Source: Pleurostoma richardsiae
Lineage: Eukaryota; Ascomycota; Sordariomycetes; Calosphaeriales; Pleurostomataceae
Direction: 5' to 3'
DNA length: 64,000 nucleotides
NCBI GenBank assembly: GCA_030052745.1
Contig: JANBVO010000080.1
Coordinates: 1 to 64,000 of the forward strand
Shown here: positions 8,297-28,591 of the stretch, piece by piece
Layout: each line of letters starts with the position of its first letter
How positions within the stretch are numbered: the stretch's first letter is position 1
Notes under the pieces: model-generated
Database searches by the model: none
Seen by the model: only the letters and a program-made list of their open reading frames with translations
What the model was told of the DNA's origin: nothing
Program-made: the position numbers and the translations under genes

Positions 8297-9753
8297 CTAC
8301 GCCTCGCTAGACTCTCCCCGCTTGATCCAGTCGAATTCTTCCTTGAGGTATAGATGTGCTCGCAAATCCCCAGATCTGGCGTGGCCCTCGAACAGCTCGG
8401 CTCTAGCAGCCCGCCCACACAGCTGACCCAGGCGACCACTCTCCTCTGCGGAACGAACTTCTTGGTATGTTACGGTCCTCAAGAATTTGCCCACCCAGAG
8501 ACCACCCGTATATCTGGAAGCACCTTTTGTCGGAAGAACGTGATTCGTTCCAATGCACTTTTGGGCACCCGTCAGTCTCCCAGAATGCAACACTCTTGGC
8601 TGTGCAGCTTACCTTGTCACCGTAGGACACGCAGGTCATAGGACCCAGAAAGAGAGCTCCATAATTGCTCATCTTCTCTATCGCATCTCTCGGGTTAACT
8701 GTCAGAATCTGGACATGTTCGGATGCATACTCGTCGGCAACCTGATACGCCTCATCCAAAGAGTCAACTAGCACGACCTCTCCCAAATTCTTCCATGAGA
8801 CACGTGCAACAGGGCTGGTAACCAAGTCTTCGAGGAGGGTGTCGCAGCAGTCGATTGTCTTCCTACCGACCTCTGCGGAGGTGGTGATTAAAACCGCAGG
8901 ACTATCAGGACCGTGTTCGGCTTGAGACAGCAGATCTGTTGCAACCATGAAAGGGTTCGCTGTTCCATCCGCAACAACCAGTACCTCCGTCGGCCCGGCA
9001 AAGAGGTCAATTCCGATCTCTCCGTACAGTTGCCGCTTTGCTTCGGCGACAAAGGCATTCCCTGGGCCAGCGATGAAGTTGACCTTGGGGACTGTCTCCG
9101 TTCCAACGCCCATGGCTGCAATGGCCTGGATTCCCCCGAGAAGGAAAATAGCATCCGCACCTGCAAGGTGCATGGCAGCTACAGTAGTGTACGGTATCTT
9201 GCCATGGTCGGGGGGCGTGCAAGCGACAACAGTCTTGACGCCAGCAACTTTGGCAGTAAGGATGGTCATGTGCGCTGAAGCTAGAAGAGCGTACCGTCCT
9301 CCAGGAATATATCTGGCAAGCCGTACATGATTAGCCTTCCTTGATGTTCCGCGGCTAATGTAATCCGGAGTTTTATACTCACGCGCCCACGGACGTGATA
9401 GGGTTATTCCTTTGCCCGAGGAAGACGCCCGGTGCCGTCTCGATCTCAAAGTCTTTGAGCGACTGCTTCTGTGCAATCGCAAATCTCCGTACATTTGCTT
9501 GGACATTCTTGATGTCTTCGATGGTCTGCGCAGGGACTTGGGAGATGGCATGTTCAATCTCAGCCTTGGATAGTGCGAACGACTCGGGCGACCACTTGTC
9601 AAACTTCTCGCTGTACTGCCGCACTGCTGCGTCTCCTTCGACGCGGACTGCGTCAATGACACCCTTTACTATGCCGGGAATGTCGATAGACGGGCGATCT
9701 GCGCCTGTGGCAGCGCCTGCTGTCGCCGCCTTCTTAATGTAAGAACGTGCCAT
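8297..9753 (-). CDS. Histidinol dehydrogenase-like enzyme (HisD family)
   Basis: Exons 9383-9753, 8613-9312 and 8297-8557 give 443 residues, full length for HisD. The fold's landmarks are present: YIPGGRYALLASA, IAGPGNAFVAEAKR, FAGPTEVLVVAD, SQAEHGPDSPAVL (zinc Gln/His), ASEHVQIL (Glu-His pair that activates water), the Asp of YGDK, GTNHVLPT, and EGHARSG near the C-terminus (zinc His). The family oxidises an alcohol to an acid in two NAD-dependent steps through an aldehyde. In fungi histidine biosynthesis normally uses a large trifunctional HIS4-type protein, so this stand-alone form next to catabolic genes may act on another amino alcohol; that is inference. Transcribed in the same direction as the SDR and MFS genes beside it. 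An in-frame ATG 51 nt upstream is an alternative start. Confidence 0.9.
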
Positions 9754-10045
9754 TGTGTCTGTCGGTCTCTGATCGGCCTGCCAGTTACGGGCAACTACGG
9801 GCATTATTCGTTGCTTGGGGCATGTATTATTTGTATCAGTGACATACATAGTCACTACCCGAGCGCACTCACGATCACTTCTAGTTAGTGGTTTTTTAAT
9901 TGAAGCAGCTATGTTCGTAATGGAAGGACCCCCGCTCCGGTATCTGGCTCCTGTCCACCTCCCTATCTTCGGGTGCGGGGGAAGACGGAAGGTGGAGAGC
10001 CGTTGGCTGATCCGCCATCGACCGGATCGCACACAGTTTTGGTGT

Positions 10046-10864
10046 TCAGTGAATGAACAGACCGCCGTTTACGAACAAGTGCTGGCCATTCACCCAACCG
10101 GCTCTCTCCTCGCAAAGGAACGCCACCGCAAATGCTACTTCTTCCGGGGTTCCCATCCTTTTCGCTGCTGGTGTCGCGTCAATCGTCGGTTGCAAGACCT
10201 TCATGGCCTCATCGCCCGCGGCCAGGAACCCCTCAGTGACAGTGGGGCCGGGAGACACGGCGTTGACGGTACAGCCGTACTTGGGCGGCAACTCCTTGGC
10301 CCAGACCCGGGTGAATGAGTCCACCATGCCCTTGGTCCCCGCATAAATGGTCTGGAGAGGCGGGGGACCGCGAGAACTGACCGAGCAAATGTTGACAATG
10401 CGGCCCGCCGGGCGGGTCATGTGCCGGAGGGTATGCTGGGTGAGCAAGAAGGTTCCGCGGGCGTTGAGGTTCACCAGTGTGTCCCAGTGGTCCAATGTCT
10501 GTTCCTCGAATGGTAGATTGATCGCAAGAGCTGCGTTGTTCACCAGGATGTCTATGTAGCCGAAGTGATGTATAGCCGCGTCCACTAGTGCCTTTGGCCC
10601 TTCGACTGTGCTCACATCTGCGCACAGAGCCACAGACGTCGTGGGAAGACTGGCAGCGACCGCAGCGGCATCCGCGGATAAGGAAGGATAAGGATAGTTG
10701 ACCACAACGTGTGCTCCCCGAGAAGCAAGCTCTCTGGCGATAGCAAGACCGATGCCGCTGTTGCTGCCAGAGACAACGGCTACTTTGCCTGCGAGAGTTT
10801 GCGGGACTGAGGAGGACATGGTGATGTTTGATTCAGGTGAGGGTGTCGGAGACATGGCAAGCAT
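10046..10864 (-). CDS. Short-chain dehydrogenase/reductase (SDR)
   Basis: A single exon of 272 residues from ATG 10864; an internal ATG (MSSSVPQTLAG) gives a shorter plausible start. It has the classical SDR cofactor motif as SGSNSGIGLAIA, then DILVNNAA, a catalytic Ser (ICSVSSRG), the YAGTKG Tyr-Lys pair, and VSPGPTVTEGF. It ends with the usual FVNGG.. tail. Predicted cytosolic NAD(P)H-dependent oxidoreductase on an alcohol or ketone; the substrate is unknown. The first Gly of the TGxxxGIG motif region is preceded by Ser instead of Thr, a common variant. It sits between the HisD-like enzyme and the MFS transporter, all on the minus strand. Confidence 0.92.
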   Translation of the reverse strand: MLAMSPTPSPESNITMSSSVPQTLAGKVAVVSGSNSGIGLAIARELASRGAHVVVNYPYPSLSADAAAVAASLPTTSVALCADVSTVEGPKALVDAAIHHFGYIDILVNNAALAINLPFEEQTLDHWDTLVNLNARGTFLLTQHTLRHMTRPAGRIVNICSVSSRGPPPLQTIYAGTKGMVDSFTRVWAKELPPKYGCTVNAVSPGPTVTEGFLAAGDEAMKVLQPTIDATPAAKRMGTPEEVAFAVAFLCEERAGWVNGQHLFVNGGLFIH

Positions 10865-11366
10865 ATGCAAATGAGTCTGTTCGGGCGGTCTATCGTCGAG
10901 CGATAGACTTACTACTCCTTCGCCGGAAGAACGTGACGAGAAACGATTCAGCGGCCGCCAACCCCCCTAGCTTTGTAATTTTCGGAAAGTGGCCCACACG
11001 GCGACGGCGCGCATTGCTGAGTCCCTGGGAGATCCTGGCCCAAACGGCCAGTTCCAACGCAGACAGAAGTAATAATTAAGGAGTAGAATAACGCACACAA
11101 GCAAACAAAGCAACCGACGAATCACGCTCAAAATTGGTCACCAACTTTATATTAAAATCCTCATTGGGCATAGTCGGATATCCTGGTTAACAGAGATGTT
11201 TGTTCGATGGTTCTGTAACAGGACACCATGCGGGTGCATACATGGCGAATGGCATGATGTTCTATTTGCATATTGATGTGGCGGGTTCCTTACAAGACGG
11301 TGGAACGTCTTGCCATAGTTATGGCTTATTGACCAATAATTACCTGTTCGTCACATATCTAAAAGA
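10865..11366. other. Intergenic region
   Basis: About 500 bp between the SDR start and the transporter 3' end. It should contain the SDR promoter and the MFS terminator. No ORF of note. Confidence 0.4.
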
Positions 11367-13250
11367 CTACTCGCCCACTTCACGATCTTCGTGCCAGTGT
11401 GCAAGACGTCTGATGAAGGCCCAGTGCCACGTTGAACGCCTGATCCTCTCGCCGAAGACGTACATCGGTAGCCAGAATAGCATCACCGCGCCCGAGATTC
11501 CTGCCATCGCACCGTACGCCCGTTCATACCCGCTCTTCGCGATCCACGGATTTGTGTAGAATGAAAGAAGAAAGCCAAAGGCAGCTGTAAGTACGATCGT
11601 GGTCAGCCAATGCGCATCCATGTAGTAACTAGACTGAACTCGGGACCTCACACTTGAACGCGAGCTGCGTCACTGTTATCTCACCCGCCACGGGGCGGTA
11701 GGCGTCGATGGCATAGACGAGAGTAACATTGGTAGCCTGGACGATAGAGAAGTTCACTTTTGTCCCTATTAGTGATGTGCTGATTGCGTCCCTTTCGTTG
11801 CAATGACTCACGGAGAGCTAAACCCAGCGTAGGAACTATCCAGTGTAGATCTTTACCGACGCCGACGCCGAAGAGCACGAGAGCGAGCGGGGAGGTTACA
11901 AGAGAAATCGTGACAGCGGGTAGGCGCATCTCCGGTTCTCTGACTCCGCCATTCCGTACGGTTAGGGCATCAGCGATCATGTCGCTGAAACGTCCTCCGA
12001 AGAAAGCGCCGATCAATGCACCAATGACCGCTGCTATAAAGCAGAGGCCTGATTGCCAAGCTTCGAACTGGTAGGCCTCGCTGAACGCCGATGCAAAGTT
12101 GGATGTGATAGCCACGAGGAACCCGATGGTGACAGACATGACTAGGGTGGCCCACAAAACCGGCGGCAGGGTTAGCATGACAACGGGGCGGATGAAAAGC
12201 TTGAAGAAGCTCTCCTGCGTGTAGACACCCGTGAACACCCTCAGGCTCTGCAAGTAACTGAGTCTCTTTGGAGTTCCCGTAGTTGCGCCTCTGGTTGTTA
12301 GCTCGGACTCGACAATCTCCGGGTCCTGACCCTCCTTCAGGGAGCTCTCGGTGAGTATCTCAGGGTCAAAGGCAGCTCCCCCACCAGCCAAAGTGGCTGC
12401 GCGGTTGAACTCTGTCTCAGGGAAGGTGAAGATAACAAGCAACGTGCAGGTTCCAATGAGGGCTACCGCAACCCAGTAGATGTACCGCCAGCTGAGGTTA
12501 ATCGTGATGAGGCCAGCGATGATGATGCCACAGCCAACGCCACCTGAGAGCGCCGCAGTGTAGATGCTGCCGTGATGAGTCAGACCATGTCGCGCTGGAT
12601 GCTAGAGACGACGGATCCTTCGGAGAATGGAACTTACGCCATGATGGCACCTCGCTCATGCAGAAAGAAGATGTCAGAGATAGTCAACGGTGCGAGGCAT
12701 TCGGCAGCTCCGGAGGCCACTCCCATTAGGATACGAGCCGCCAGAGAGCTGCCATATGAAGTGGCTGCTCCGGCCCAGGCCGCAGTTCCCGTGTACAGGC
12801 AGAAAGAAATGACATAAATAGGTCTGCGGCCAAACTTGACTATAAGGGGCATCCACAAAAGGTTGCCCATTCCCTGAAGAAGGGCAGTTGTGGTGAAGAA
12901 GTAGGCGACCTTCGCAATCTTGGCAGAGAAGTCGGGACCGGGAGGCCCGTAGAAGGAGGTCGTGATGTCGATGATGGCAACTGTCGGCCCTGCGGCGAGG
13001 AAGTTGCTGAAGAATATGGCACAGGACACGAGAACGGCGATATAGACGCGGTACGCCTTGGACCTGCATACCATGTTAACCCGGGTTATTACGTCGCCAT
13101 CACGGAGGAAGTGTACCATGTGAGGGGGTCGTTTGGGTCTTTGGTCGGAGTCGGGACCAAAATGATCTCGTTTGTCTCATGGTGACGAAGGCGAACGTTC
13201 CCCAGTGTTTCCTTTCGTATTGGTTCGGGCTGTATGCTGTCGCTGGCCAT
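11367..13250 (-). CDS. MFS transporter (DHA1-like, drug:H+ or organic solute)
   Basis: Five exons (13117-13250, 12638-13063, 11812-12566, 11652-11765, 11367-11584) join cleanly to 548 residues. After a 45-residue polar N-terminus ending in DPNDPLTWSKAYR, which is typical of the fungal DHA1/HOL1-like group, come 12 predicted membrane segments. GNLLWMPLIVKFGRRPIY matches the MFS loop 2-3 motif G.L.DR.GRR..., and ILMGVASGAAECLAPLTISD matches the segment-5 type motif. A long charged central loop (ETEFNRAA to RLSYLQSLRVF) separates the two halves. The C-terminus carries LSFYTNPWIAKSGYERAYGAMA. Likely plasma-membrane uptake or export of the cluster's substrate. It shares a 489-bp divergent promoter with the FAD oxidase at 13740. 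Confidence 0.9.
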
Positions 13251-13739
13251 GGCGTTCTTTGCGTTTCCCCGCCAGTCGGATGAGGGTGTTCTTGTCAAGC
13301 AACTCTCAAAAGCTCGCTAGGATGGTTACTCTCGGTAGGTGGTGACCCCAGGTGGCATTCCCATTATGTAGGACCATACTTCATGCTGGGCCGTGCGGAT
13401 GGCCTTCAGGGCACACGCTACTCGAGCTGCCTGCTTCTCTGCTCGCGCCTAACAGTTGACGGAGATCCGGGGAAGTGGGGTATATCTGGGGGGATGTGGT
13501 CCCGCGAGACCCGAAAAACTCGTGTCGTGAGGGCCATAACTAACCCCACGGGGCACGACAGCCGAGGTACTGTATGTATTGGCCTGGAGCACAAGCCCCA
13601 ACCCCCTGCCTGCAAGCTACTCAAGTAGCTGGCTAGTGCCAGAATCTATCTCTTTACTGAGAGCACAGAAGGGATCCCGATCAACAATTTCGTGCCACCT
13701 GATTGGGCGTTGTTATTCTTACCTCTAACCTTCGCAAAG
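13251..13739. promoter_or_regulatory. Divergent promoter: MFS transporter / FAD oxidase
   Basis: A 489-bp region between two divergently transcribed, apparently co-functional genes, which suggests shared control. I found no good copy of the CCACATGCCGG element here. Confidence 0.55.
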
Positions 13740-15352
13740 ATGGCAAGCGAGAAACACACTTTCACACTAAGAGCTCTGCCTCCCAACTTCCCCATCTTAT
13801 GGCGAGGGGATACTGGCTACGAACGGTCGCGCATTGGCCGCGTGTTCAACTACCGTCGTCCGTCTCGCTATCCCATTGCGGTAGTCGAGGCCACGACCGA
13901 GGAGCACATCGTCGAGGCCGTCCGTCTGGCCGACGAGATTGGCTGCCGGATTTCGGTCCGCTCCGGTGGCCACAGTTGGGCCGTCTGGAGTGTCCGCGAA
14001 GGGGCAATCTTGATCGACCTGGGACGATATCATGAGTTATCCCTGGATGAGAAGACAGGCATCGCAAAGGTGTCTCCGAGCACCACAGGTAGGCTAGCAA
14101 ACAAGCTGCTGGGAGCGTCGGGACGCATGTTCCCCGGAGGGCACTGCCCAGAGGTCGGACTTGGTGGGTTCCTATTGCAGGGTGGCATGGGATGGAACTG
14201 CAAGGTAAGCACGCCTTGCGTAAACGCTACTGCACGGCTACACGCTGACTGGTCGTAGAATTGGGGCTGGGCGTGTGAGAGGGTGTTGGCCGTTGACGTC
14301 GTCACTGCAAGCGGAACGCGGCTCCATTGTGACAAGAAGGAGAACAGTGACCTATACTGGGCGGCTCGTGGTGCTGGACCTGGTGAGATGACTCATATTT
14401 TCTGCCTCTGCCATGCGGTGCGAGCGCATTTCTCACACTCACCAGGATTTCCAGCCGTTGTGACACGGTTCTATTTACAGACAATACCCAGCTTCAGCCA
14501 TATCCGCTCCTCTGCCTACATATATGAGAAAAAGGACTATCGCGAGGCCTTTGAATGGATCATCAAGGTGAGGATCTCTTTTAAAGATGCTCGCTATAAC
14601 TAAGCTCCCATGTGTAGATTGCACCAACCTTCGACGAGTCTACCGAAATCGTTGCCGTCGCTGCTTACCCTCCAGGACTCTCAGAATTGCACATCACAGT
14701 CCTTCTGGTTACCTTAAAGAACAGTGAGTCTGACGCGCGCGCAGCCCTGCAACCAGCAGAGGATTCGGCGCCTGCCGGCCATGTCGACAAGTGGTTCTGC
14801 AAGGAGAGTTCCTTGGCGCAAGAGTATGATGCTCAACATGCCGCGAACCCAATGTCGCACAGGTACTGCACCGACAACTGTTATATCAAAAATGACGCCG
14901 ATGTCGTATCGGTATTGCAGGAGGCCTTCACCTCACTACCGTCGAGAAAATCCTTCTCACTGTGGTACTCAATGGCGCCCTGCTCACGACGCAGCGCGGA
15001 ACAAGGCACCATGGAGGATATGGCGCTTTCCATGCAGTCTGACCACTACTTCGCTGCATATGCTATCTGGGAAGATGACGCTGACGACACAAGATGCCAG
15101 ACTTGGGTCAGAGAAATCTTCAAGGAAGCAGAGAAACACTCTGATGGCAGCTATCTGGGAGATTCGGATTTCCAAGTTCGCAGAACTAGGTACTGGGGAG
15201 GTGAACAGGGCCGCAAGCTCATGAAGCTCAGGAGAGAATGGGATCCTCAGGGCCGAATCGCAGGTTACTTGGATCAAGGGGACAAGAGTGGCACCGAAGG
15301 TCTCGCGAACGAGCAAGAGTGGCAGACTTTTGAGACAGCCCAGGACGCATAG
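13740..15352 (+). CDS. BBE-like FAD-linked oxidoreductase
   Basis: Exons 13740-14204, 14259-14382, 14446-14567 and 14618-15352 give 481 residues. The FAD_binding_4 (PCMH/VAO) domain holds ISVRSGGHSWAVW, whose His is the usual site of covalent 8-alpha FAD attachment. GGHCPEVGLGGFLLQGGMGWN carries the Cys that in bicovalent BBE enzymes makes the second FAD bond. The C-terminal RYWGGEQGRKLMKLRREWDP is the BBE domain end in a variant form (usually YYG.N..RL...K..YDP). No signal peptide is seen, unlike many fungal secreted BBE enzymes, so it is probably intracellular. Related fungal enzymes oxidise alcohols, amines or phenolic scaffolds with O2; the substrate here is unknown. Confidence 0.92.
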
Positions 15353-16188: not shown

Positions 16189-18728
16189 ATGTCTTCAACT
16201 GACGCCTTACATACAAATGGGACGGTTAACACCGGTCCCAACGGTCTTCCGAAGGGCAACAGTGCTGCTTCCCACAATAGCCTCGCTAATTCCAATGGAA
16301 TTTCTGAGATCGACTCCCAAGGCCTGCGCGTTGTCATTATCGGTGCTGGAATTGGAGGATTGACCGCCGCACTGTATCTTCGGAGGCAAGGGCATAGCGT
16401 GATCTTGCTGGAGCAGTCACGATTTGCCAATGAATTGGGCGCTGCTATGCACCTGGCTCCGAATTCAAATGGGCTTCTACGGCGCATTGGCATCTTTGCT
16501 GAGGATATCGGCGCCAACTTGATGGAAAGGGTGAGCCCCCCAGTTTGGTTAATATCACGCTGCTGGCATCATTGCATCGAAGCTGACCGTGACGGCAGGT
16601 CACCGAGTACGACGCAGAAAACAACATCACACGCGACGTTGATCTGGTAGAGGACAACAAACTCTGGCAGCACCCCTGGCACTTAGTCCATCGTGTTCAT
16701 TTACACGAGGAGCTTAAGCGCCGTGCGACCTCTCGGGACACTGATGGCGCACCTGCAGAGCTGAGAACATGCAGCCGCGTCGTGGATGTCGACGCTGTTT
16801 CCGCCACGGTTGTGTTGGAGAATGGAGAGCGGGTCCATGCTGATGTGGTTATCGGCGCCGATGGAGTCCACGTGAGTTGTCCCTATTCCCAACTATGGAC
16901 TGAGCGTAGGATCGCAGCGTGCTATGCCATTATTTGAGAGTTCTTCAATCGTGGCAAACACCATGCTAATGTAGGCTACGTCCAATAGTCTGCAGCCCGT
17001 GCCAAGATCCCTGGCGGCAACATCACCACTAAGCCGTCTGGCAAGAGCGCATTTCGGTTTTTGGTCTCCCGTCAGGCGGCTCTGGATGACCCAATAACAG
17101 CACAGTTTGCGCAGAAGGAAGGGCAGCTAATCATCTGGTACGGCAGTGATAGGCGTGTGATCATGTATCCATGCGACAAAAACAGGCAGCTCAACTTTGT
17201 GTGCATACATCCTAGGGAGGAGAGTGAGGTGGGCAAGCTCGATGGTAAGCTCACCGCTGAATATATACACAATCCAGAGATATTAACAGTGAACGAGACT
17301 GGAACACCGGCAGTAACAAAGCCAAGTTGCTCGAAGTATACAAAGCCTTTGATCCGGCTCTGCTCGCTCTATTGGGCATGGCAGAAGCCGGTTCCCTGAA
17401 GGTCTGGGAGCTGCTCGATATGGATGTGCTGCCGACGTGGGTCAACAACCGCTTGGCACTGCTCGGCGATGCGGCCCATCCTTTTCTCCCTCGTCAGTAC
17501 TGGCTCAATACCACAACCTCTTCGGACGATCTAGTAACACTGTTGCAGACCAGGGACAAGGGGCTGGCTGTGCCATGGAAGATGCTGCCGCACTGGCTGT
17601 CGTTCTCCAGCGTGGTACGAAGGCCGAGGAGGTCGAAGAACGATTGCGACTATATCAGAACATAAGGTACGAGCGTGCGAACAGGATACAAGAGTACTCC
17701 CGACTAGCAGGGCGGGACCTTGGAGAGAACAAGTTGGACAGTAAGCTACCTCCAGGATAAATGTCCAGTGGTTGCTGCTAACGTTCTCGCTTGTAGTGAT
17801 GGAGTACACAAACTACAATTTCGGTCACGACGAGTGGGATCACTCCATGGACGTTCTTCGTAGATGGAATTGGAGCCGGAAGCCCAATCTGTACTGGCGG
17901 ATGCCTATCTCTTTTGGTCCTTTTCCAGGCCCGCGTCAGACCTTTGACGGAAAGCCTAGGGTGGCGACTCACTCGACTTTCACTACTGCTTCGCTGAAGT
18001 TCAAAACATCCAGGACTCTTCTGCAGAATCTCTTCCCATCGTCGTCTTTCCGTTTCAAGAGTCCAGGTACTGTGGCTTATGCCAGCTTCTCCCAGACGAC
18101 CTTGAATAAGATGGAGTGGCTTGGAGGCTCCGGCTACCGGCACTTCGGGCTCTACGTCCACGGTGTCCAGTATATTACGAAGACTGGGGACACGCTCGAC
18201 GGCACATTCCTACCAATACTGTTCGAGAGCCTGACAGACCCCATCGTCAGTGGCCGTGAAGAGCTAGGGATGCCGAAGTTATACTGCTCGATTGATATTT
18301 GGCGTCGAGAGAAGAGCTACAGAGTCCAGGCTGGCTGGCAAGGCGCCAACTTTGCTTCTCTCGTGCTCAAGGGTTTGCATGAAGTCGACCCAAACAGTGA
18401 AAAGGGAACCATCGGAGGGGAAGACGATCAGGGAATCTTTGCGTACAAGTATGTCCCCAAAGTTGGAGAGCGCGGCAAGGCTGATGTCGAGCATGCTACA
18501 TTCGTGCCGCATGCCGAGGAAGCCAAGGTCGTTCCGAGCAAGGTCGAGAAGGTTTTCAAGGCCGAGCAGGCAAGTGTGTCATTCGATGGGCTTGACTGGG
18601 AGTCATTGCCCACCCTTCACCACGTCATATCGCGACTCGCCGAGATCCCTGTTTTCGAGGTTGTGGGTGCAAAGGTAGTCGAGGGGGTTGGTGTGCCAGA
18701 TGTCTCAAGCGCAAGGAGGATCGACTGA
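16189..18728 (+). CDS. FAD monooxygenase fused to acetoacetate decarboxylase-like domain
   Basis: Six exons (16189-16530, 16599-16871, 16989-17244, 17298-17492, 17549-17740, 17797-18728) give one 729-residue frame without interruption. The N-terminal half is a class A flavin monooxygenase of the salicylate-hydroxylase type: RVVIIGAGIGGLTAALYL at about 48-65 (FAD GxGxxG), VVIGADGVH at about 197-205 (DG motif) and LLGDAAHPFLPHQGQGAGCAMEDA at about 345-368 (GD motif). The second half, about 440-725, resembles acetoacetate decarboxylase-family (ADC) enzymes, with the family signature GREELGMPK that contains the Schiff-base Lys region. The fusion suggests hydroxylation followed by decarboxylation or a related C-C step on the same substrate; the second activity is inferred. 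The splice choices are fixed by conserved protein motifs on both sides of each intron. Confidence 0.9.
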
Positions 18729-19055
18729 GATCTGCTTGGTCGGTGCCACGAGGCGGTTTCAATGTAGTGTCGTATCCACGGTCATCATCATTATCCTTAC
18801 TCTTCAGACGCGTAATGTGGATGGTTCGGACCACCTTGCGGGCGGGGGCCCGAGGCCCTTGTTCGGGCGGCTTCTTTCCCCCACATCGGGACCCCAAACA
18901 TGCAACCGCGCTTGTGGTGTGCAACACGCCCATCCCTCTAAACCCTTTCTGTGACCAGTGCAAGTACTTCAAGCCGAGAAGTTCACCCCTCGACAGACTT
19001 GGGAGTACATTCACCGCCAGAGACCTTGAACCCCCCCCCCCCCCCCCAGCACATC
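18729..19055. other. Intergenic region before the cupin gene
   Basis: Promoter and 5' leader of the cupin gene. It ends in a 17-base C run 9 bp before the ATG. Confidence 0.5.
19031..19047. repeat. C17 homopolymer just upstream of the cupin ATG
   Basis: Seventeen consecutive C residues between CTTGAA and AGCACATC, immediately before the start codon at 19056. Such a tract is expected to vary in length between isolates and sits in the mRNA leader. Confidence 0.95.
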
Positions 19056-19607
19056 ATGCCAGCCTCCGACCAGCTCAAGGACATCCGCCCAATCCGGCGC
19101 TTCATCACCACCCACTCCCCTGATGGCAAACCAGGCTTCTCGAACGCAATCTCAGAGGAGGCGCCTTTCAAGGTGCTCCCAGACGGTGCAGAGTTTGCTC
19201 TTTGCTATGCGACCAACAAGTTCCCCGTTGAAATGACCGGCGACGTAGACCTTGTCACGTATGAGCAATACACAAAGGAACTCCCAGGCATCACCATCTC
19301 TACCGGCTCGGTTCTGCGGGTAGTGGACATGAGGCCGGGTGCATTATCGCCTATGCACCGAACCGTCAGCCTAGATTATGGCGTCGTTCTGGAGGGAGAA
19401 GTCGAGCTGATCCTCGACTCCGGGGAGTCGCGGCTGTTGAAGAGGGGCGACATTTCAATCCAGCGCGGGACGAACCACGCCTGGAAGAACACGAGCGAGA
19501 CGAGCTGGGCCAGAATGCTGTACGTTCTGCAGCCAGCACAACCGCTCGTCTTTGAGGGGCAAATTCTAGAAGATAACACTGTGGCCACGATCCCAGGGCA
19601 CAAGTGA
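19056..19607 (+). CDS. Cupin-domain protein
   Basis: A single exon of 183 residues. It is a compact single-domain cupin: MRPGALSPMHRTVSLDYGVVLEGEVELIL (first cupin motif, with the His reduced compared with the canonical G(X)5HXH(X)3,4E) and LLKRGDISIQRGTNHAWKNTSE (second motif, with the conserved PGD-like turn and a His). No signal peptide. Small fungal cupins of this type occur in many metabolic clusters as isomerases, decarboxylases or dioxygenases; since metal ligands are incomplete in motif 1, the exact chemistry is open. Its position between the monooxygenase fusion and the regulator, on the same strand, supports a role in the same pathway. Confidence 0.88.
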   Translation: MPASDQLKDIRPIRRFITTHSPDGKPGFSNAISEEAPFKVLPDGAEFALCYATNKFPVEMTGDVDLVTYEQYTKELPGITISTGSVLRVVDMRPGALSPMHRTVSLDYGVVLEGEVELILDSGESRLLKRGDISIQRGTNHAWKNTSETSWARMLYVLQPAQPLVFEGQILEDNTVATIPGHK

Positions 19608-20036
19608 GTCCACCGTGGCTCTAACACAGGCCGCGTGGCGTGTATGTACATGGTGGAGGAAGGGGGAACTCGGGCAGACTCTGGCCCCGATAGGATAGAG
19701 AACGAACGCGGCATAGAAACACGGCATATATTGTGGATGTAATTGCATCGATGGACAGAATACTCTGTACTACTGTGTACACAAACACAACAGCCCCTGT
19801 AGAACCCTCCAGTGACCAAATTTCCCCACAAAGCCAGAAGCCTGAAACTATTGCATCAAAGCTGTTGCCCCCGACCAACCCCGCACGGAGCTAGGCCGTC
19901 GGTCCTAGCCAATGCTGGTTTAGTGCCGACATCGTGTTGCGGAGGTGGATTTGCGGGGGACAAGATATGATCCTAGGGGTTGGCCGGCTTTGTAAAACAC
20001 AGCACACAACGGGAGAGGCCTGCGAAGCGGCCTCTC
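19608..20036. other. Intergenic region before the regulator gene
   Basis: About 430 bp containing the cupin 3' end and regulator promoter; no ORF or repeat that I can support. Confidence 0.4.
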
Positions 20037-22966
20037 ATGACCTCCATCACTAGGGCAGCAATGACAGACCGTCCGTCACAGAAGCAGCAGCTGAAGGGGT
20101 CTGGTCAGAACCTGTTCCAGTGTTCGGCGTGCAAACGCACCTACACTAGGGTAGACCACCTCGCGCGGCACGTCCGATCCCGTTCGTCATGTCTTCCCCC
20201 GTAACCCCACAAGCGCAGGCTCTGACCTCAGACTGGCAGATTTGCATGAGCGACCCTTCCAGTGCCCGACCTGCAACAAGGCTTTCGGGCGACTGTACGT
20301 TCATGGGCGTCTTGATCTGACTAACCCTGTGACGCTCTGACTGACCTCTTGGCCAGGGACTTGCTCAAACGACATGCCGCCTGCCATCAAGGGGATCGAG
20401 ATGGCAAGACTAACAAAAGCAGTCACAATCAAGGGCCCCGAGTGTCCCAGGCCTGCAGGTCCTGCGCAACAGCCAAGCTCAAGTGCGATGACGAGAAGCC
20501 CTGCGGAAGATGCCAGCAGCGAGGTATAACTTGCGAATACGCCATAGAAGGCCATGACCGCGCGAGATCTGCGGCAAGTGACAGGTCGCAGTCAGGTAAT
20601 GCCATTCGCTACTCCGTCTTCCCAGCCGACGAGAAACGATGGACTGGCATTTTAACATGCGATGTTGCTAACGTTATTGCTCTTGCAAGATCCCGTCTCG
20701 CCGCCTGGCCAACCCGAATCCAACATCACAGTGGCCTTGGATAGTTCTGACGCTACTACTAAGCTCTCTGTGCTTGAAACCATGATCCAGAGTAGGCACT
20801 TCCCAGTCAAACCTGATCTTCACGTGGCTTAAGAATGTGGTCAGGTCAATCGTCTCCAGCGCCGGAGGTTCCGAATGAACAGATGCCGAATTTTCAGGAG
20901 TATGACATGTCTGGATTCCTCAAGGGAGTCATGACCCCGACTGTGCCAAACTTCCCTGCTACCTGGATGGAAGTCGACAATTTCGGACCACGAGGACTCT
21001 TAGACTTTACCAGCGACTGGATCGACTTCAATGATGCAGACTTTGGTTTTCTAGACCAGTTATGTAGTGATCCCTTCAGTATGGAGCAGCAACAACAACC
21101 CTTCTCTTTTCAAGCACCCGAGGTACCTGGACTCAAAGTTCAACGAAAGAGCGTTGCCCTTGGAGCTGAAGCCTTTAAGCGTTCTACGCTCGGTATTTGG
21201 CTACCAGCCCGTCAAGACCGCACTGACGCAGAACTGGAGGACCTTTCCGCTCTGAGCGCCGAGGCTGGCTCTCCCGACACCAGAATTAACGTGGAGCGAC
21301 GTTGTCTAAGGGAGAGTCTGAACAGAATCAAGAGAGACGAAATCTTGGCAATGATCTTGCAAACATGCAAACCGGAAAGGGTGACATTCGTCGTCAAGAC
21401 GTTTCCTACCCCAGAGCTCCTGGACGATCTGATCGAATGCTTCTTTTCCAATCACCGGCAACAGACGGACTCCTTCATCCATATGCCTACCTTCAACCCG
21501 AACCAGCAGCAGCCAGAATTGGTCGCTGGAATGGCGGCGTTCGGTGCTACAATGACGGACGTGAGGTCTCTTCATAAGCTTGGGTTTGCCATGCAAGAAG
21601 CAGTGCGCACGACGGTGCCGGGGAGATGCGAGGAGGCGAATGCAACGACCAGAGAACTCTGGCTTCTTCAAGCTTTCATGTGTGAAATACAGATAGGAAT
21701 GTGGAGCGGCATCAAGCGGAAGATGGAAATAGCTGAGAGCCACACCCAGATCCCACACACGGTATGTTCTGGCAAGAGCATCAGTCTCTTCGGCACAATG
21801 GTAACTAACCGCGGCAGATGCTCCGCCGTGCTGGCAGATTCCACCGGCTCAAGAGGCCGACACCAGAGCCCGTTCCCCAGGATACTGGCAATGTCCTTCA
21901 CCGCAAGTGGCTCGAGTGGGCGGAACAAGAAAGTCTCTGCCGACTGGTGTTCCACGCGTTTATATTTGACGCGCAGGTCTCCATGGCGATGCTCACAAAC
22001 CCGATCATATCCTATTCAGAACTGTCTATTCCCTTACCCGAGTCTCGGGAACTCTGGATGGCGGAAGACGCCGATCAGTGGAAGGCATTGTTCCTCAGCA
22101 GACCCAGGTCCCATAGCCCTCAGCTCAACCTGCTGGACTTCCTGCAGCAGCCAACAGAACTTCCAGAAAATCATGACGTTCATCTCTCCAGCCTCATTAT
22201 CCTATACGGGCTGTGGGGCATGATCTGGCAACATTTACAACTTGCATCAACGCTGAAACGGCCGGGTCATACAAGCCCCTGCGTTGCCCTTAGACATCAG
22301 GAGCTTCTCCAGACGCTCCATCATTTCCGAATCAACCTACACGGGTGCCAGTCTCCTCCACGCCCAGATACGGCACTCCTTCTCGAGCTTCTGCACATGC
22401 ATCTCCACATGCATATCGGGGAGATGCAGTTGTTTGCCGGCAAAGGGGACATTGAGGACGCGCGTCGAGTGCTTCCTTCACTTCAGCAGTGGGTTGACAG
22501 CTCTGAATCACGGCAGGCGATCTGGCACGCGGGGCAGGTTCTCCGCGCCGCAAACGATTTCCCACCCAAGCAGCTGTGTCGCTTCTATGCTATTGCTGTT
22601 TACCATGCCGGTCTTACTCTATGGGTCTACGGCGTCATCTCACAGTGCAGGGTTGTACGGGACAAGTCGTTCTCGCAAAATCCCGGCGCACATGCGGTAT
22701 GTCTGGATGGGCCGGAATGTCCCGCAACACAGCGCTTCATAACGCTCGGTAAAGGCATTCCTGGTGTTGGCTTTCGTCAGGGCACAGACCCGGCAATTGG
22801 CCTGGTTCCCCTATCAGATCACGAGGCGGTCATGGATGTTGTTGTCGACACTCTCAAGAACAACTTCCCGACCCCCCTGGATACTGACGAAGCCCCGCCC
22901 TTAGTCCAAAACTTGATACAGCTCTTGCGCGATCTCGGAAAGGCAGCAGGCGGCATCGGGACTTGA
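20037..22966 (+). CDS. Transcription factor with two C2H2 fingers and a Zn2Cys6 cluster
   Basis: Six exons (20037-20181, 20240-20294, 20357-20595, 20690-20791, 20845-21761, 21818-22966) give 868 residues. Two C2H2 fingers come first: FQCSACKRTYTRVDHLARHVRSH (about 27-49) and FQCPTCNKAFGRLDLLKRHAACH (about 55-78). Next is a binuclear zinc cluster at about 101-127 with spacing C-x2-C-x6-C-x5-C-x2-C-x6-C. The large C-terminal part has the character of the fungal transcription factor (Fungal_trans) domain, for example LIECFFSNHRQQTDSFIHMPTF and WLEWAEQESLCRLVFHAFIFDAQVSMAM. Introns interrupt both C2H2 fingers' coding region, and the joins are confirmed by finger spacing. Dual C2H2/Zn2Cys6 regulators are a known fungal class; a role as local activator of the surrounding block is inference from position. 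Confidence 0.92.
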
Positions 22967-23004
22967 ACAACGGTCCACCCGGTGCCTGAGCGTTCTGGCC
23001 ATCC

Positions 23005-23060
23005 TCCACATGCCGGGCGACGTGTCCACATGCCGGGTGACCTGCCCCACATGCCGGCGA
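23005..23060 (+). promoter_or_regulatory. Three 20-bp direct repeats, candidate operator array
   Basis: Three near-identical elements at 23005-23020, 23025-23040 and 23046-23060 share CCACATGCCGG followed by GCGA, GTGA or CGA. The spacing is 20-21 bp, about two helical turns, so all would face the same side of the DNA. The array lies about 215-270 bp before the hydrolase ATG at 23276 and just after the regulator's stop. CCGG-centred sites suit zinc-cluster regulators. Confidence 0.6.
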
Positions 23061-23275
23061 CATCCACCACCACGCAGTTCCCTCGCACCAACTAGGGGGT
23101 ATTGGTAGCGACCCCACTCATTCTAGAGTGTCGTGCGCGATCATTGCATTCGTTTGGTCTTCGTTCGGGGTGTTTGAAATTGGGCTTTTACTCGCATTGT
23201 TGCCGACACCACACCATTCTATTATCTTCTCCTCGCATAGCCTGTACTCTGTCCTGCAGACCTGCTTAGCCGATC

Positions 23276-25269
23276 ATGCCGAATCAAGTAAGGACCGACC
23301 TTCATCGTATTGACGAGGCAACTTTCCCCTATGTCTTCGAACAGAATGCCACGGTGAAACTTAAATCCAGTGATGGACTGGTAAGATGCAATGTGTATCG
23401 ACCGAAAGGTTCCGGTCCGGCCAAGACGGTTCCCGTTCTCGTTATGTATGGCCCTTACGGAAAGGACACATATTACGGAGAGTAAGAACCTAGCGCTGTG
23501 TCCTTGCCACAGGGTGATGTTGCATACTGACCGCGCCAAACGTTTAGTTTCCATGCCAAATCCTTCTCAGAAGTCAATCCAGAACACAGATCTGCGCACT
23601 CCGCCTGGGAAACTCCAGACCCTGGTTTCTGGACAAGCCATGGCTACGCCGTTGTACGCGCAGACGAGCGTGGCATAGGACAGTCAATGGGCATGTTGGA
23701 CACAATGTCCCGTGGCACCAGTGAAGCTTTCTTTGAAGTGGTGGAATGGTGTGCTGACCAGCCATGGTCGAGTGGAAAAGTTGGTCTCTTAGGCATTAGC
23801 TACTATGCTGGGAGCCAATGGCGGGTAGCCGCCCGCCGGCCGAGAGGTCTCGCCGCCATGATCCCTTGGGAGGGCATGTCTGATTACTATCGTGATCGGT
23901 GCCGGCACGGAGGGATATTGTCGAACAATTTCATCAAGTTCTGGTGGAATCGGCAGGTTGTGGCAAACCAGTACGGCCGGCCTCGAGACGAAGAAATCAT
24001 TACGGTCAAAGACATCGCAGGCGAAGGCCCGAAGCGGCCGCAGTCAGCCCCGGAGTCGATCGAGGGCAATCTCCCGGAGGCTGAACGCGCGCAGAATCGT
24101 CAGGACCAAACAGTGGATAATAGGGAAAACCGTTTCCGCGACGACGAGTATTACGCATCCAAGGAGTACGACCTAGGCGACATTGAAGTCCCATTGCTGT
24201 CGGTAGGCAATTGGGGGGGCATCTTACTACATCTCCGGGGCAACATTGAGGGGTACAACCATGCCGGCTCAGAGCGGAAATGGTTGCGCATGATCACCGG
24301 CCGCCACGATCTGCCATTCTACTACAAGGAGGAGGTTGACATTCAAATGTCGTTCCTTGATGCCTTTTTAAAAGGCGAGGACCGTGCGGGGTGGACAAAA
24401 GGGCAAGTCCCGCCTATAGACCTGGTGCTACGGAAGGGCGACGTCGGGTTCAACAAACCGGAGGCTGAGAAGCGCTTCCCTCGGCGCTGGGAAAACGAGT
24501 GGCCCATTGCCCGTACACAGTGGACAAAATGGTACTTGACGCCTCAGAAGGGGTTAATGCCAGATATCCACAGGGTGCAAGCGGCCAGCAAGACACGACA
24601 GAAGCTTACGTACGAAGCTATGGGAACCCTTGACGACCCACGGTTTGTCCAGTTCAGCACGGAACCATTCCAGCACGAGACTGAAATTACTGGCAACATC
24701 GTGGTACATCTCTGCGTGAGCGCTACCGCTGAGGCTCGCGGCCCCACGCCTTCCGACATTGATCTCTTCGTCACGCTCCGCCACATTTCTGCCCAAGGAA
24801 GCGAGGTATTCTACACTGGAACGGCTGGTGACCCAGTGCCGCTAACGAAGGGGTGGCTGAGAGTCAGCATGAGGAAGGTGGCCACCCACCATCGCAAGCA
24901 CCGGCACTACCTTCCCTGGAGAGAGTACCTGAGCACAGACGTGGCGCCAGTCGTGGTTGGGGAGATCTACGATGTCGATATTGAGGTTTGGCCGACTTGT
25001 GTAGTAGTTGAGCCTGGTGGAAGGATCATCTTGGAGGTAGCCAGCGGAGACACCCAAGGATCCGGCATATTCAGGCACGACGATGCTCTCGACAGGTGAG
25101 CGAGTTCCTGGCTTCTCATGCGATTCGTACTTCGCCAAGAAACGTGACTAACTGTTCCATGTTTAGGGCACCCAGCAAGTTCCAAGGACTCAACCACATC
25201 TGCTTCGGGCCGCAAGATCTGAATTACGTTGTCTTGCCAGTAATTCCAACAAAGGATACAACGCAATGA
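23276..25269 (+). CDS. CocE/X-Pro dipeptidyl-peptidase-family hydrolase (S15)
   Basis: Exons 23276-23481, 23548-25095 and 25167-25269 give 618 residues. An alpha/beta-hydrolase core begins with a substrate-facing strand (VPVLVMYGPYGKDTYY), then GYAVVRADERGIGQS and the nucleophile elbow LLGISYYAGSQW with Ser at about 153. GRHDLPFYYKEEVDIQMSFLDAFLKGE gives the catalytic His/Asp region. The C-terminal half is the jelly-roll X-Pro_C domain (ITGNIVVHLCVSATAEARG..DIDLFVTLRHI). No signal peptide, so probably cytosolic. The family cleaves esters or amides (cocaine esterase, X-Pro peptidases, glutaryl acylases). In this setting it may release an acyl or amide group before ring degradation; that is inferred. 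Confidence 0.92.
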
Positions 25270-25581
25270 GTGTGTCCTTACCGTAGGGCCCCTCAAGTGA
25301 CAATTTTCCTGCCATGTATGAGGCCAGGAGCAGAAATCTTGCCCAGCAAAGCTCGCTCCAGTTCTAGGTAGACTAGCCTCATGAATCAGACTATTAATTT
25401 GCCATCATATAACCGCCACGAGATAACAAGAGCATCGACCGTTTTCATCAACAGGACAGTCCAATATAATGTGGACAGACTCACGGATGGAATCTCAGGT
25501 TGTCTTTCGACGTATGTGCCAGGTGATCGTCATTGTCTCCCAACCGTATGATATTGCACACCTTTAGAAAATACTGAAGTT
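25270..25581. other. Convergent intergenic region
   Basis: 312 bp between the 3' ends of the hydrolase and the dioxygenase, so it should hold both terminators. Nothing else seen. Confidence 0.4.
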
Positions 25582-26550
25582 TCACGCTGCTACCGTGCTA
25601 CGATATCCCTTCCAAGTCCCGAGAGTGTACTGACTGTTGCACATATTTGTCAGTTCCCAGTCCTCTGCACCAAGGACACCGGCCATTGCTCCATCTTCAG
25701 CTCTCCCAGCCGCCCCGGCGGCAAAACACATAGACATGAAGTGGTCATCTGTCGCGTGAGCGTCCCTGAACAAAGGATGTTTCATCAGCCTAGTCACGGC
25801 TCTCCGCAGCTTGGGACCGCCACCTCTCCTCAGCACATCCTCGACACTTTGCCGGAATTCCAAAGCCCAAGGACCCGGTGGAGTTGGCTGAGCAAAGTTG
25901 TCTCCGTACAGGATCATAGGATCCCACACATTACGGTACAGATTATGGACCGCGCCTCCTGAGCCCACGAGGAGGTAGCCGTCAGCGCGGAGAGGTCGAA
26001 GAGCTAGGCCGACACGCATGTGGTAATGCGGGTCATATCTCGGATTCATAGACACTATGGTCGTCGGAGGACACCCGCTGGGGAACATGCGGATTAGAAT
26101 GAGATAAGTGTCGTGGATCCAGTCGAAGGACGGGTTGGGATGGGCGTTGAAGCCGGCTTCTCGGAGGAGTGAGACGCAGTGCTCCGCCGCCACCAGATCC
26201 GGATTAAGCTCGTAGTCCTTGTACTTGGAGGGATGCACGTATGCCACTGGAGATTTCTTGGGGTTCGGATTGGTGCTGATTTCAATCGAATCTGTCTGAG
26301 CGGCCCAATGCGCACCCTGGGATGTTTCTGTTAGATCATGGACGGACGCAACGGGCGCCAACAGGCATCATAGACTCTGTCCTACAGGCGCCCAGTGGTA
26401 GTACGCAAAACTCACCATTATTACGACGCCTCTGATCCCGTTTGCAAGTGCCTCGTCGCCGCATTTCTTCCAGTAGTCTGCGGACTCGGAGTCCTCACCG
26501 AGCATCATGGTTGAGCCATGGGAGAAGAAATGCACCGGCGTCAAAGACAT
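25582..26550 (-). CDS. LigB-type extradiol aromatic ring-cleavage dioxygenase
   Basis: Exons 26416-26550 and 25582-26316 (donor GTGAGT, acceptor CATCCCAG) give 289 residues, the usual length of the class III (4,5-DOPA dioxygenase-like) family. The N-terminus VHFFSHGSTMML carries the first metal-ligand His; GVVIMGAHWAAQ supplies the second HW motif; further His residues occur in the DWIHDTYLILI region, and VGSGGAVHNLYRN matches the conserved GSGxxxHNL. These enzymes use Fe(II) and O2 to open catechol-type rings next to the hydroxyls. Placed beside a flavin hydroxylase, this is strong circumstantial support for an aromatic-degradation route. The protein has no targeting signal and is probably cytosolic. 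Confidence 0.9.
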
Positions 26551-26946
26551 GTTCTAACAAATGGTTGCCTGTGATGGTGGATGGGAAGGTCGACTAGCCC
26601 TATTTACCAGTTGTTGTCACTTAGACGTCTGAAATAGACAGTGTGTCCCTCGAACAGCGATCGGATCTATTGGAGGATATTGATCCTGAAGATCTCCTTT
26701 GAGGGCGCTTTAGGTGGCAACTCCACTGGGCTCGGGCTCGGGATGTGGGGAGTGGCGAAAACTAACGCGGCGAAACGGCCGCTTTAGCTGAGTCTCTCTT
26801 TACAAAGTCCAGTGGTGGAGAGGGCTGTTATCTAGCGATCCCAAAAGCATTGGGAATGTGAAAGGCGTCAACACCTCTGCGCGATTGAATTCAAGCCGGT
26901 GAGGAGATACTTGAGAGAACTGATGAAAAATAGCGACAACCCGCGC
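26551..26946. other. Intergenic region
   Basis: About 400 bp between the dioxygenase promoter and the ALDH-like 3' end. No ORF and no clear copy of the cluster motif. Confidence 0.4.
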
Positions 26947-28591
26947 TCACTTGGTGAGCACATAAACCGCCTTTTGCAAGCCACGGTAAGCTAAGGCGCT
27001 CAGTCCAACCACCACGGGTGTCATGCTTGTAGCAAGCCCAACAAGGACTGCCCCTTCGAAATATCCCATGACGTGCTTGACCGGAAGTCTCCTTTCCACT
27101 TCGATCTTTTCCAGAAGGTCTATTTCCGCAACTGGCGCTGTCTGCCCGCCGTCTGTTATTCTCCACAGGTGCTCAAAGGCCGTTGTACTCTTGGCGAACC
27201 TCGGGCGTGGGGCGGTGAACAGGCTTGATGGGTACCGTGTTGAGAGAGTCAAGGGATGGCCTTCCGGGGCGGCTGGTCCTACTTTTCAGGAGCACTAAAG
27301 TCAGAACTCACCCAAGTGCAGTTTCAAATAGCGACGTACCGAGCAGCTCCGTTGGGATCCAGTTAGCGAAGCCAGCAGAGGATGGAGTGAATTGTAGCAA
27401 ATAATTGCAAGTCTGGAGATCTCCGAATGAATATACAGCCAGAAGAGTCTCAGGAGACAAATCGTTCGCAATTTCGATAGCATCGTCCAAGCTGCTGACT
27501 CCATGGACACGGATGGACCTCTGCGTAACCTTTCCTAACTCGGGTAACAAAGCCCTGGTGAACAGGTTAGTGCCTACATGAAAGAAGTGAACGGACAAGT
27601 GCCGCTTTGAAGGACTTGCCTATCACGAATGTCCACTATGCTGCTGTTAGCTCCTGAGGTGATGGTCCTGATGCCACTTTGCGTCGTCACTGAGCCATTA
27701 AGCTTCGCATCACTACTGTTGAGCCACTCGTGATTCTCGGCCAGACTGCCCTTCTCCTCTGTCATGTACCTTATTGAATGTCTCGCAGCGGCATTCAGGA
27801 AGTCTGTCTTGGCGAACTCATTTACGAGGATAATATCCGGTGCGTAGGGGGATCTTCCCCTGAATTGCATTCGTGCGTCAACCAATGTCTTTGCGGCTTC
27901 CTCTAGATCTGCTGTGCGATCGACTATAGCGACCACTAGAGAGCACGGTGACGACAAGAGCGTCTTCGGGGTCTGCAAGGCCACATCTCCTGTTTGGATA
28001 ACCTGGATGCAATTTGGGCTAACATTCCGGGGCCTTGTCTGGGTCGACTCGTAAATGTCTTGGCCTAAGGACTCCCGTAGGATGTTGGAAAGGATTGAAG
28101 GGAGTGTTAACAGAGTTTGTTCAAACTAGAAAAGGTACGCAGAGTTAGCACTTTCCGTTAGGAGTCTTGTATGTTCTTCTACTCACCACAACAGCGACAC
28201 AATTCCCAGCCGCGATGGCAGCTGCAAGCGGTACGATCACCGAATACACGAAGCTGTGTTTTTGCGGGGTGATCAACGCTATCCCAACGCCTTCCCGCGC
28301 ATCAGGGGCATCTCGGCCCTTAGCGACCCGATATTCTTCGTCTAGCTGCTCTTCCGGCTTCAGCTCATCATGGTACGACTTGATTGCTGAAAGAGTCAGG
28401 TAGAGTTCCACAAACGCTTCCGTTGGAGCGTAATCGGAGTCTTGGATAATTCCGTCTAGAAGAGCATCCTTGTGCTTCAATAGAGTGTCCCGAAGCTGGC
28501 GCAGCTGGTCTCGACGGAAGAAAACATTGGCAAGACGCCCGTCTGCCAAGGTGTCTTGGAGCTTTGGAAATATTGTTGTAGAGTCCGACAT
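26947..28591 (-). CDS. Aldehyde dehydrogenase-fold protein, probable pseudoenzyme
   Basis: Exons 28187-28591, 27620-28125, 27340-27554 and 26947-27278 give 485 residues. ALDH-superfamily features are recognisable: PQKHSFVYSVIVPLAAAIAAGNCVAVV (the NAD-domain start), ARMQFRGRSPYAPDIILVNEF (aligned to the active-site G(Q)xC.APD region), VHGVSSLDDAIEIAND and SAGFANWIPTELLGGPAAPEG. In that alignment the catalytic Cys position holds Pro (GRSPYAPD against GQTCVAPD), and the usual Glu and glycine-rich cofactor motifs are not evident. The C-terminus has a hydrophobic segment (GYFEGAVLVGLATSMTPVVVGLSALAY) that could anchor it in a membrane. Intron 2 uses a GC-AG pair (donor AG|GCAAGT). Loss of activity is inference from sequence; a non-catalytic or altered role is possible. 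Confidence 0.78.

Follow-up and report, generated by a model that had tools for sequence, protein, structure and literature searches.

A two-module gene cluster of Pleurostoma richardsiae, probably degradative for a plant-type aromatic compound

Introduction

Cleavage of aromatic rings by fungi has so far been described for intradiol enzymes alone, according to PMC10512348, which also cites work of 1987 on Aspergillus flavus hinting at an extradiol gallate enzyme. Extradiol dioxygenases are called less common in fungi in a 2025 review (PMC12388069), and an extradiol DOPA enzyme used for pigment formation was reported in 2025 for Aspergillus sydowii (PMC12653660). Here we describe a cluster of ten genes, among them one for a LigB-type extradiol dioxygenase, found at positions 8297-28591 of a 64,000-nt stretch (hereafter the window) of a contig from Pleurostoma richardsiae (Sordariomycetes, Calosphaeriales). 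The cluster is a composite of two modules. Module A consists of genes for a HisD-like enzyme, a short-chain dehydrogenase (SDR), an MFS transporter and a BBE-like oxidase; module B of genes for a flavin monooxygenase fused to an acetoacetate-decarboxylase-like domain (FMO-ADC), a cupin, a transcription factor, a CocE-type hydrolase, the LigB protein and an aldehyde dehydrogenase (ALDH)-like protein. The type of cluster is already known; with a LigB gene adjoining a hydroxylase, a hydrolase and a regulator, the gap concerning substrates of fungal extradiol enzymes becomes directly testable.

Cluster 2 of Grosmannia clavigera (Hesse-Orce et al. 2010, PMC3091685, Table 6) comprises adjoining genes for an S15 hydrolase, a predicted protein, a ring-opening dioxygenase, PutA, a cupin and an SDR. 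For three of these genes, transcripts came from pine phloem extract libraries only; overrepresentation was significant for the cupin (p = 0.03) and for none of the other five genes. Its authors, using best-hit annotation, proposed a role in the breakdown of aromatics such as phenolics, and reported the cluster as unconserved in four other fungal groups. FMO-ADC, HisD, BBE, MFS and transcription factor are not named in its list. As the gene names of cluster 2 are those of module B, the core of the Pleurostoma locus has been published before, without characterisation, and in this respect the initial annotation of the window, which did not recognise the combination as a described pathway, has to be amended. 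No characterised cluster with FMO-ADC, HisD-like, CocE and LigB genes was found in the open-licence PMC literature, although subscription papers could hold one.

The gentisate catabolism (GC) clusters (Greene et al. 2014, PMC3914699) have in common with our locus a salicylate-hydroxylase-type FMO, a cupin, an ALDH, a C6 regulator and an MFS transporter. The ring is cut there by a cupin-fold gentisate 1,2-dioxygenase, whereas the window contains a single 183-aa cupin; the LigB, CocE, ADC-fusion and HisD-like genes are extra here, and no stilbene dioxygenase is found among the ten. Assignment to the GC clusters was rejected, the cupin not being gentisate-dioxygenase-like and a gene of the fumarylpyruvate hydrolase type (fumarylacetoacetate hydrolase, FAH) being absent among the ten. 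A module B paralogue elsewhere in the genome does share an FAH-domain gene with the GC clusters. Two bioinformatic classes of degradative clusters, ARD and SAH, are named after their core gene (Gluck-Thaler and Slot 2018, as described in PMC10735191), and their cores, ring-opening dioxygenase and salicylate-hydroxylase-type genes respectively, both have a counterpart here. By the definition given in that source the locus belongs to the ARD class, since a LigB-type core is accompanied by catabolic genes with at most six genes between. Cluster 32 of A. flavus, which has a salicylate hydroxylase and a ring-opening dioxygenase and is linked in print to aflatrem and nepA, was also considered for comparison. 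The BOA (2-benzoxazolinone)-induced FVEG_03387-03405 cluster (FAD, cupin, ALDH, FAH-type and other genes) was set aside, as it looks more GC-like; LigB is not listed for it.

Results

Ten intact genes

Gene models were built with GT/GC-AG introns, and domains were called at Pfam cut-offs. Ten complete reading frames, with zero internal stops after splicing, were obtained between 8297 and 28591:

8297-9804, minus strand: HisD-like (HpsN-type) NAD-dependent alcohol dehydrogenase, module A; 460 aa; exons 9383-9804, 8613-9312 and 8297-8557 (alternative start: the public protein begins at the internal Met18, about 9753)
10046-10855, minus strand: SDR, module A; 269 aa, one exon
11367-13250, minus strand: MFS transporter, module A; 545 aa, five exons
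13740-15352, plus strand: BBE-like FAD oxidase, module A; 481 aa, four exons; motifs RSGGHSW and GGHCPEVG
16189-18728, plus strand: FMO-ADC, module B; 729 aa, six exons
19056-19607, plus strand: single small cupin, module B; 183 aa, one exon
20037-22966, plus strand: transcription factor, module B; 868 aa, six exons; C2H2-type fingers, Zn2Cys6 and Fungal_trans
23276-25269, plus strand: CocE/NonD-type (S15) hydrolase, module B; 618 aa, three exons; nucleophile motif GISYYAG
25582-26550, minus strand: LigB-type class III extradiol dioxygenase, module B; 289 aa, two exons; His 11, 48, 113, 169 and 237
26947-28591, minus strand: ALDH-fold protein without the catalytic Cys, module B; 486 aa, four exons; GRSPYAPD

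The order is thus HisD-like, SDR and MFS on the minus strand, BBE-like, FMO-ADC, cupin, regulator and CocE on the plus strand, and LigB and ALDH-like again on the minus strand. Pfam cut-offs were passed for Histidinol_dh, SDR (adh_short), MFS_1, FAD_binding_4, FAD_binding_3 with ADC, Cupin_2, Fungal_trans with Zn_clus, Peptidase_S15 with PepX_C, LigB and Aldedh, the last one marginally (28.3 bits against a cut-off of 23); the C2H2-type fingers of the regulator score below theirs. RSGGHSW and GGHCPEVG in the BBE-like oxidase are what we take to be candidate bicovalent FAD sites. Public P. richardsiae proteins are 100% identical to our models over 289/289 aa for LigB and over 96% for HisD, and both lie on one 73,965-base contig. 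Spliced frames, Pfam domains and these matches bear out the ten adjacent intact genes proposed in the initial annotation, which was also right that no polyketide synthase, non-ribosomal peptide synthetase or terpene synthase is present, none of the ten being one.

Both modules have counterparts elsewhere in the genome

The ten genes had been proposed as one set. This did not hold, as each module is also present without the other elsewhere in this genome. On contig C136 (29.9 kb), BBE-MFS-SDR-HisD relatives stand in the order and relative orientation of module A. Its HisD is 87% identical to the window copy (spliced protein) and the other genes 65-71% (tblastn pieces), its BBE aligning only with residues 1-288 of the window BBE. 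This copy, within 1-15 kb of the contig, stands beside a second SDR, a relative of the regulator, an FMN-reductase-domain gene and a glyoxalase-domain gene.

Module B has two counterparts, both without module A. One, at 422-441 kb of contig C45, contains ALDH-like, cupin, regulator, LigB, CocE and FMO-ADC genes together with an FAH-domain gene, which lies between cupin and regulator (424.9-426.5 kb) and has no counterpart in the window cluster; no HisD was found there. The other, at 17-31 kb of contig C49, contains CocE, ALDH-like, an FMO without ADC, LigB, regulator and cupin. The whole genome yielded no more than two ADC domains. Identity to the window copy is 71% (C45) and 66% (C49) for LigB; for CocE it is 70% in C45, and in C49 62, 83 and 74% for the main pieces and 42% for the N-terminal piece. 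It falls to 43-45% for FMO, 37-39% for ALDH-like and 29-34% for the regulator, and is 60% and 30% for the cupin across the two clusters. Of the module B genes, LigB and CocE thus resemble their copies in the two paralogous clusters most closely, as would suit two successive reactions of one intermediate, with a hydroxylase that adapts. A LigB tree placed the window copy in a clade with Ophiostoma, Sporothrix, Sarocladium and Fusarium lateritium (support 98). The C45 copy joined Phialemonium atrogriseum within a wider set of Sordariomycetes, with a support of 91 that stays under the threshold of 95, and no position could be assigned to the C49 copy. From these comparisons the three module-B-type clusters look like old paralogues. 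Beside the C49 cluster, another CocE-type gene, less closely related, was seen together with CocE-like fragments at 32.9-39.0 kb, and a PhyH-domain gene at 37.8-39.0 kb.

Predicted activities of module B proteins

For the FMO domain, the Fusarium relative P0007 matched decarboxylative vanillate 1-hydroxylase best by sequence, and a fold search with the model of the Monosporascus relative P0002 (mean pLDDT 79.6) returned vanillate and 4-hydroxybenzoate 1-hydroxylases among the top matches. The FMO is therefore likely to act decarboxylatively, and likely at most, because TrlE (8rqh) ties by fold with the decarboxylative 1-hydroxylases and 3-hydroxybenzoate 6-hydroxylase comes close; the best NCBIfam family of the window FMO-ADC is 3-hydroxybenzoate 6-monooxygenase, below its cut-off. 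The fungal decarboxylative 1-hydroxylases for vanillate (8x38) and 4-hydroxybenzoate (8r2t) are among the closest solved relatives of this domain. They differ in having no ADC domain, and at about 30% identity the substrate cannot be read across. The ADC domain itself scores 48.6 bits against a Pfam cut-off of 29.8; that no ADC row appears among the best fold matches shown is due to the FMO domain filling the list. Its motif GR(E/D)EL(G/A)(M/V)PK contains a lysine which is invariant in 32/32 relatives, present in the window protein and aligned with 3cmb, and which is presumably the Schiff-base lysine.

The LigB domain scores 50.9 bits (Pfam cut-off 26.3). Its five histidines align with DODA/YgiD structures (8in2/2pw6) and are invariant in 11/11 aligned fungal sequences, the window protein included. 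The nearest PDB entries are DOPA 4,5-dioxygenases. A role as 4,5-DOPA dioxygenase is nevertheless unlikely, the score for the NF007914 equivalog being far below the cut-off (70.9 versus 233 bits). In the A. sydowii study, L-DOPA gave a yellow product with AsDODA1 and with DODAs from plants and bacteria and with no other enzyme; AsLigB1 and AsLigB2 were part of the assay (PMC12653660). By analogy, drawn from the family name, L-DOPA is an unlikely substrate of the Pleurostoma enzyme. A protein search with LigB gave 790 matches, of which the best 120 listed are fungal wherever named; no catabolic substrate for these proteins was found in the literature. Scans with two short peptide patterns conserved in the fungal proteins gave 6 pattern matches in genome contigs and 32 in viral contigs, with no confirmed bacterial or viral relative among them.

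The hydrolase belongs to the CocE family (TIGR00976, 205 bits against a cut-off of 66.3), with the GxSxxG nucleophile motif present as GISYYAG. The single-domain cupin has 3es1 and 8x0u as nearest structures, and no NCBIfam family was found for it at 1e-5. In the ALDH-like protein, GRSPYAPD stands where 9pxh reads GQTCVAPD, so that the catalytic Cys is lost. It is also lost in the copies of C45 (about 422.1-423.1 kb) and C49 (about 20.5-21.4 kb), and the SPYAPD stretch is invariant in all three, even though the paralogues are only 36-38% identical to the window protein. Judging from this alignment, it is a conserved protein of the ALDH fold and probably no dehydrogenase, and the oxidation step assigned to it in the initial annotation becomes unlikely, since the catalytic Cys is missing from all three paralogues. 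A hydrophobic stretch was noticed by eye at the C-terminus of the window protein, and could span a membrane.

The HisD-like enzyme and its actinobacterial relatives

Two labels compete for the first gene of module A. The protein passes the histidinol dehydrogenase family TIGR00069 (446 bits, cut-off 243.8), but among solved structures HpsN (sulfopropanediol 3-dehydrogenase, 8v35) scores 362 bits and the best HisD 267; by these scores the enzyme is nearer HpsN than histidinol dehydrogenase, and the initial HisD-like label has to be corrected accordingly. A separate HisD match in the genome, an 896-aa frame on contig C82, would fit a HIS4-type gene. HisD and HpsN both convert a primary alcohol adjoining a nitrogen or oxygen into a carboxylate, and this shared chemistry suggests the same reaction on a side chain here.

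HisD-like genes occur in many Actinobacteria and, in the 80 loci kept of 426 (L056-L135), are about 62-70% identical to the fungal one. In 46/80 of these loci an SDR starts less than 400 bases behind HisD; its identity to the fungal SDR is no more than about 30-40%. L056, the closest actinobacterial relative among the loci kept (70%), has no SDR behind HisD, and carries a lyase and an alpha/beta hydrolase instead. By tblastn (E 1e-8), SDR-like sequences were found in 56 of the 80 loci, FMO-like in 2, CocE-like in 1 (L084) and permease-like in 1. LigB, cupin, ALDH-like, BBE and MFS relatives were found in 0/80 in this same search, and no bacterial operon with the full set was therefore seen; in having no LigB, cupin or ALDH-like relative these loci differ from the Pleurostoma cluster. 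LacI, MFS and 3-hydroxyacyl-CoA-dehydrogenase-type genes lie near HisD in L065 and L074, with no ring-cleavage gene among the open reading frames scanned. In L084 (Streptomyces hygroscopicus, 10001-14483) a CocE-type gene 39% identical to the window CocE was seen directly behind the HisD-like gene. The HisD-like protein P0205 (Streptomyces sp. NBC_00986) is unusual in that about 70 of its residues seem to be duplicated internally.

In a HisD tree of 27 fungal and 33 of the 80 actinobacterial sequences, the two groups formed separate supported sides. This topology is compatible with one horizontal transfer and, as the tree is unrooted, with either direction.

Co-occurrence in other fungi

Conservation was examined by a same-contig census of the best 120 matches each from the FMO-ADC, HisD and LigB protein searches (424, at least 8000 and 790 matches respectively). 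Rows were transcribed by hand, and the same contig was taken to mean an identical printed size, which does not equal neighbouring; several pairs compare different strains. Chance expectations assume 40 Mb genomes and random placement. FMO-ADC and HisD were on one contig in 14 of the 25 taxa listing both, for 0.74 expected. The count for FMO-ADC and LigB was 7 of 21, against 0.92 by chance, and includes a 14-kb metagenome contig. Grouping of FMO-ADC with HisD thus exceeds chance, and that of LigB does so less strongly. Of the two refuting observations named in the initial annotation, the one on synteny in related species thus did not refute the cluster. Nearby locus tags for FMO-ADC and HisD were found in five of the 14 linked taxa, at six loci:

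Sporothrix stenoceras: 005979/005983 and 003910/003917
Monosporascus ibericus: 006463/006468
Verticillium albo-atrum: 006157/006161
Fusarium lateritium: 005236/005245
Clarireedia jacksonii: 011417/011418 (consecutive)

All three genes share one contig in five taxa:

Sporothrix stenoceras: locus tags 003910, 003915 and 003917
Lophiostoma macrostomum: contig of 46.6 kb
Lophium mytilinum, Lophiotrema nucula and Baudoinia panamericana: contigs of 0.8-2.7 Mb

Many taxa show no linkage, and in the tree two of their LigB proteins, from V. albo-atrum and from P. atrogriseum, fall close to the C45 copy. Single proteins combining FMO-ADC and cupin exist in Grosmannia (P0030) and Zopfia (P0037), and one combining HisD and cupin in Fusarium chuoi (P0146). 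These may be merged gene models, in which case they indicate adjacency of the genes all the same. In Grosmannia, P0030 and the HisD protein P0130 are on one 4.4 Mb contig; their placement at cluster 2 was not established.

Proposed pathway and alternatives

We consider it probable that the locus is a degradative cluster for a plant-type aromatic, built from the two modules. Substrate class and catabolic direction are inferred from the likeness of the FMO to vanillate and 4-hydroxybenzoate 1-hydroxylases, the conserved histidines of LigB, the linkage of FMO-ADC with HisD, and the Grosmannia expression data, where a cluster with the gene names of module B is partly specific to pine phloem extract. 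The degradative reading of the gene content in the initial annotation is thereby supported; as to the N-heterocyclic substrates it also envisaged, nothing in our analysis points to one in particular. In the proposed scheme, the MFS transporter would take up the aromatic compound, and the BBE-like oxidase and SDR would oxidise an alcohol on its side chain, where the HpsN/HisD-type enzyme would bring a primary alcohol adjoining an OH or NH2 to the carboxylate. The FMO would then hydroxylate the ring, probably with decarboxylation, and LigB would open the resulting diol in extradiol fashion. Hydrolysis and decarboxylation (or aldol cleavage) of the ring-opened acid to small acids may fall to CocE and the ADC domain; the cupin and the Cys-less ALDH-like protein would be ancillary, and the Zn2Cys6 factor would switch the cluster on. 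The exact order of these steps is doubtful. More tentatively, with a confidence that stops short of even, we propose that the locus represents a biochemically undescribed, ascomycete-wide fungal extradiol (meta-type) aromatic pathway, which would combine a bifunctional hydroxylase-ADC, a fungal LigB clade, CocE as the hydrolase of the ring-opened compound, and a module for side-chain oxidation with an HpsN-like enzyme that fungi and Actinobacteria would have in common through horizontal transfer.

Several observations weigh against breakdown of one aromatic compound by the ten genes together. No 8-mer was shared by at least 4 of the nine promoter regions (Markov shuffles expect 0.17), nor did CGG dyads occur with a single spacing in at least 5 of the nine. 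Module A stands alone on C136, where none of the module B genes was found. The different relatives of the window and C45 LigB copies imply that their clusters need not share a substrate. FMO-LigB linkage reaches only 7/21, and HisD and LigB were on one contig in 8 of 18 taxa (0.63 expected), Pleurostoma itself being one of the 8, or in 8 of 21 when three omitted taxa with the two genes on different contigs (Sporothrix bragantina, Aspergillus spectabilis and A. tetrazonus) are counted. The correspondence with Grosmannia cluster 2 is one of annotation names and not of sequence. Finally, A. niger deprived of 17 ring-cleavage genes, LigB types included, still grew on gallate, according to PMC10512348, and that work consequently reveals no LigB substrate.

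The autonomy of module A invites another explanation, namely that two independent catabolic clusters lie side by side, module A serving a polyol, a hydroxy-acid or a sulfonate-like compound and module B an aromatic one. The C136 arrangement would agree with this, as would the SDR behind HisD in 46/80 actinobacterial loci, the L065 and L074 scans devoid of ring-cleavage genes, and the confinement of the regulator to module B. We regard it as rather unlikely, given the 14/25 taxa with FMO-ADC and HisD on one contig, the consecutive tags in Clarireedia and the HisD-cupin and FMO-ADC-cupin proteins, although the latter are perhaps merged models; moreover, the actinobacterial SDR is a distant one, and it is missing behind HisD in L056. 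The same chemistry might instead detoxify antifungal plant phenolics and not sustain growth. This overlaps with degradation of a plant-type aromatic and draws on the Grosmannia expression, the phloem extract containing defence compounds, yet a full ring-opening route with a hydrolase and an ADC domain would exceed the needs of detoxification, and we hold detoxification to be unlikely.

BBE-like oxidases, MFS transporters and SDRs are common in biosynthetic clusters, and all three types are present here. Together with the DOPA 4,5-dioxygenases as nearest PDB relatives of LigB, they would suit the biosynthesis, without polyketide synthase or non-ribosomal peptide synthetase, of a pigment or specialised metabolite, for instance a betalain-like compound or a pyrone from a LigB-opened catechol. 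Such a function appears highly improbable to us: the LigB score is far from the DODA cut-off, the AsLigB enzymes gave no yellow product in the assay that succeeded with DODAs, and no tyrosinase is found among the ten genes. The FAH-domain gene of C45 and the pine-extract expression fit a breakdown of the aromatic, which we continue to prefer.

Other features of the window

To the left, the cluster is flanked by an amino-acid permease gene (5963-7710), and to the right by a methyltransferase-domain fragment (31262-31690), followed by a nucleoside hydrolase and a sugar transporter. A segment at 35921-36634 is similar to the methyltransferase fragment by eye, without a Pfam match, and the gene or genes concerned may be broken or split by introns. 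No match was found in the window with Rfam (gathering thresholds) or ARAGORN. A run of C lies directly 5' of the cupin start codon (19031-19047). At the far end of the window, the G+C content drops to 0.32 (60001-64000), compared with about 0.46-0.61 elsewhere, and this part is possibly a repeat-rich stretch or one affected by repeat-induced point mutation (RIP).

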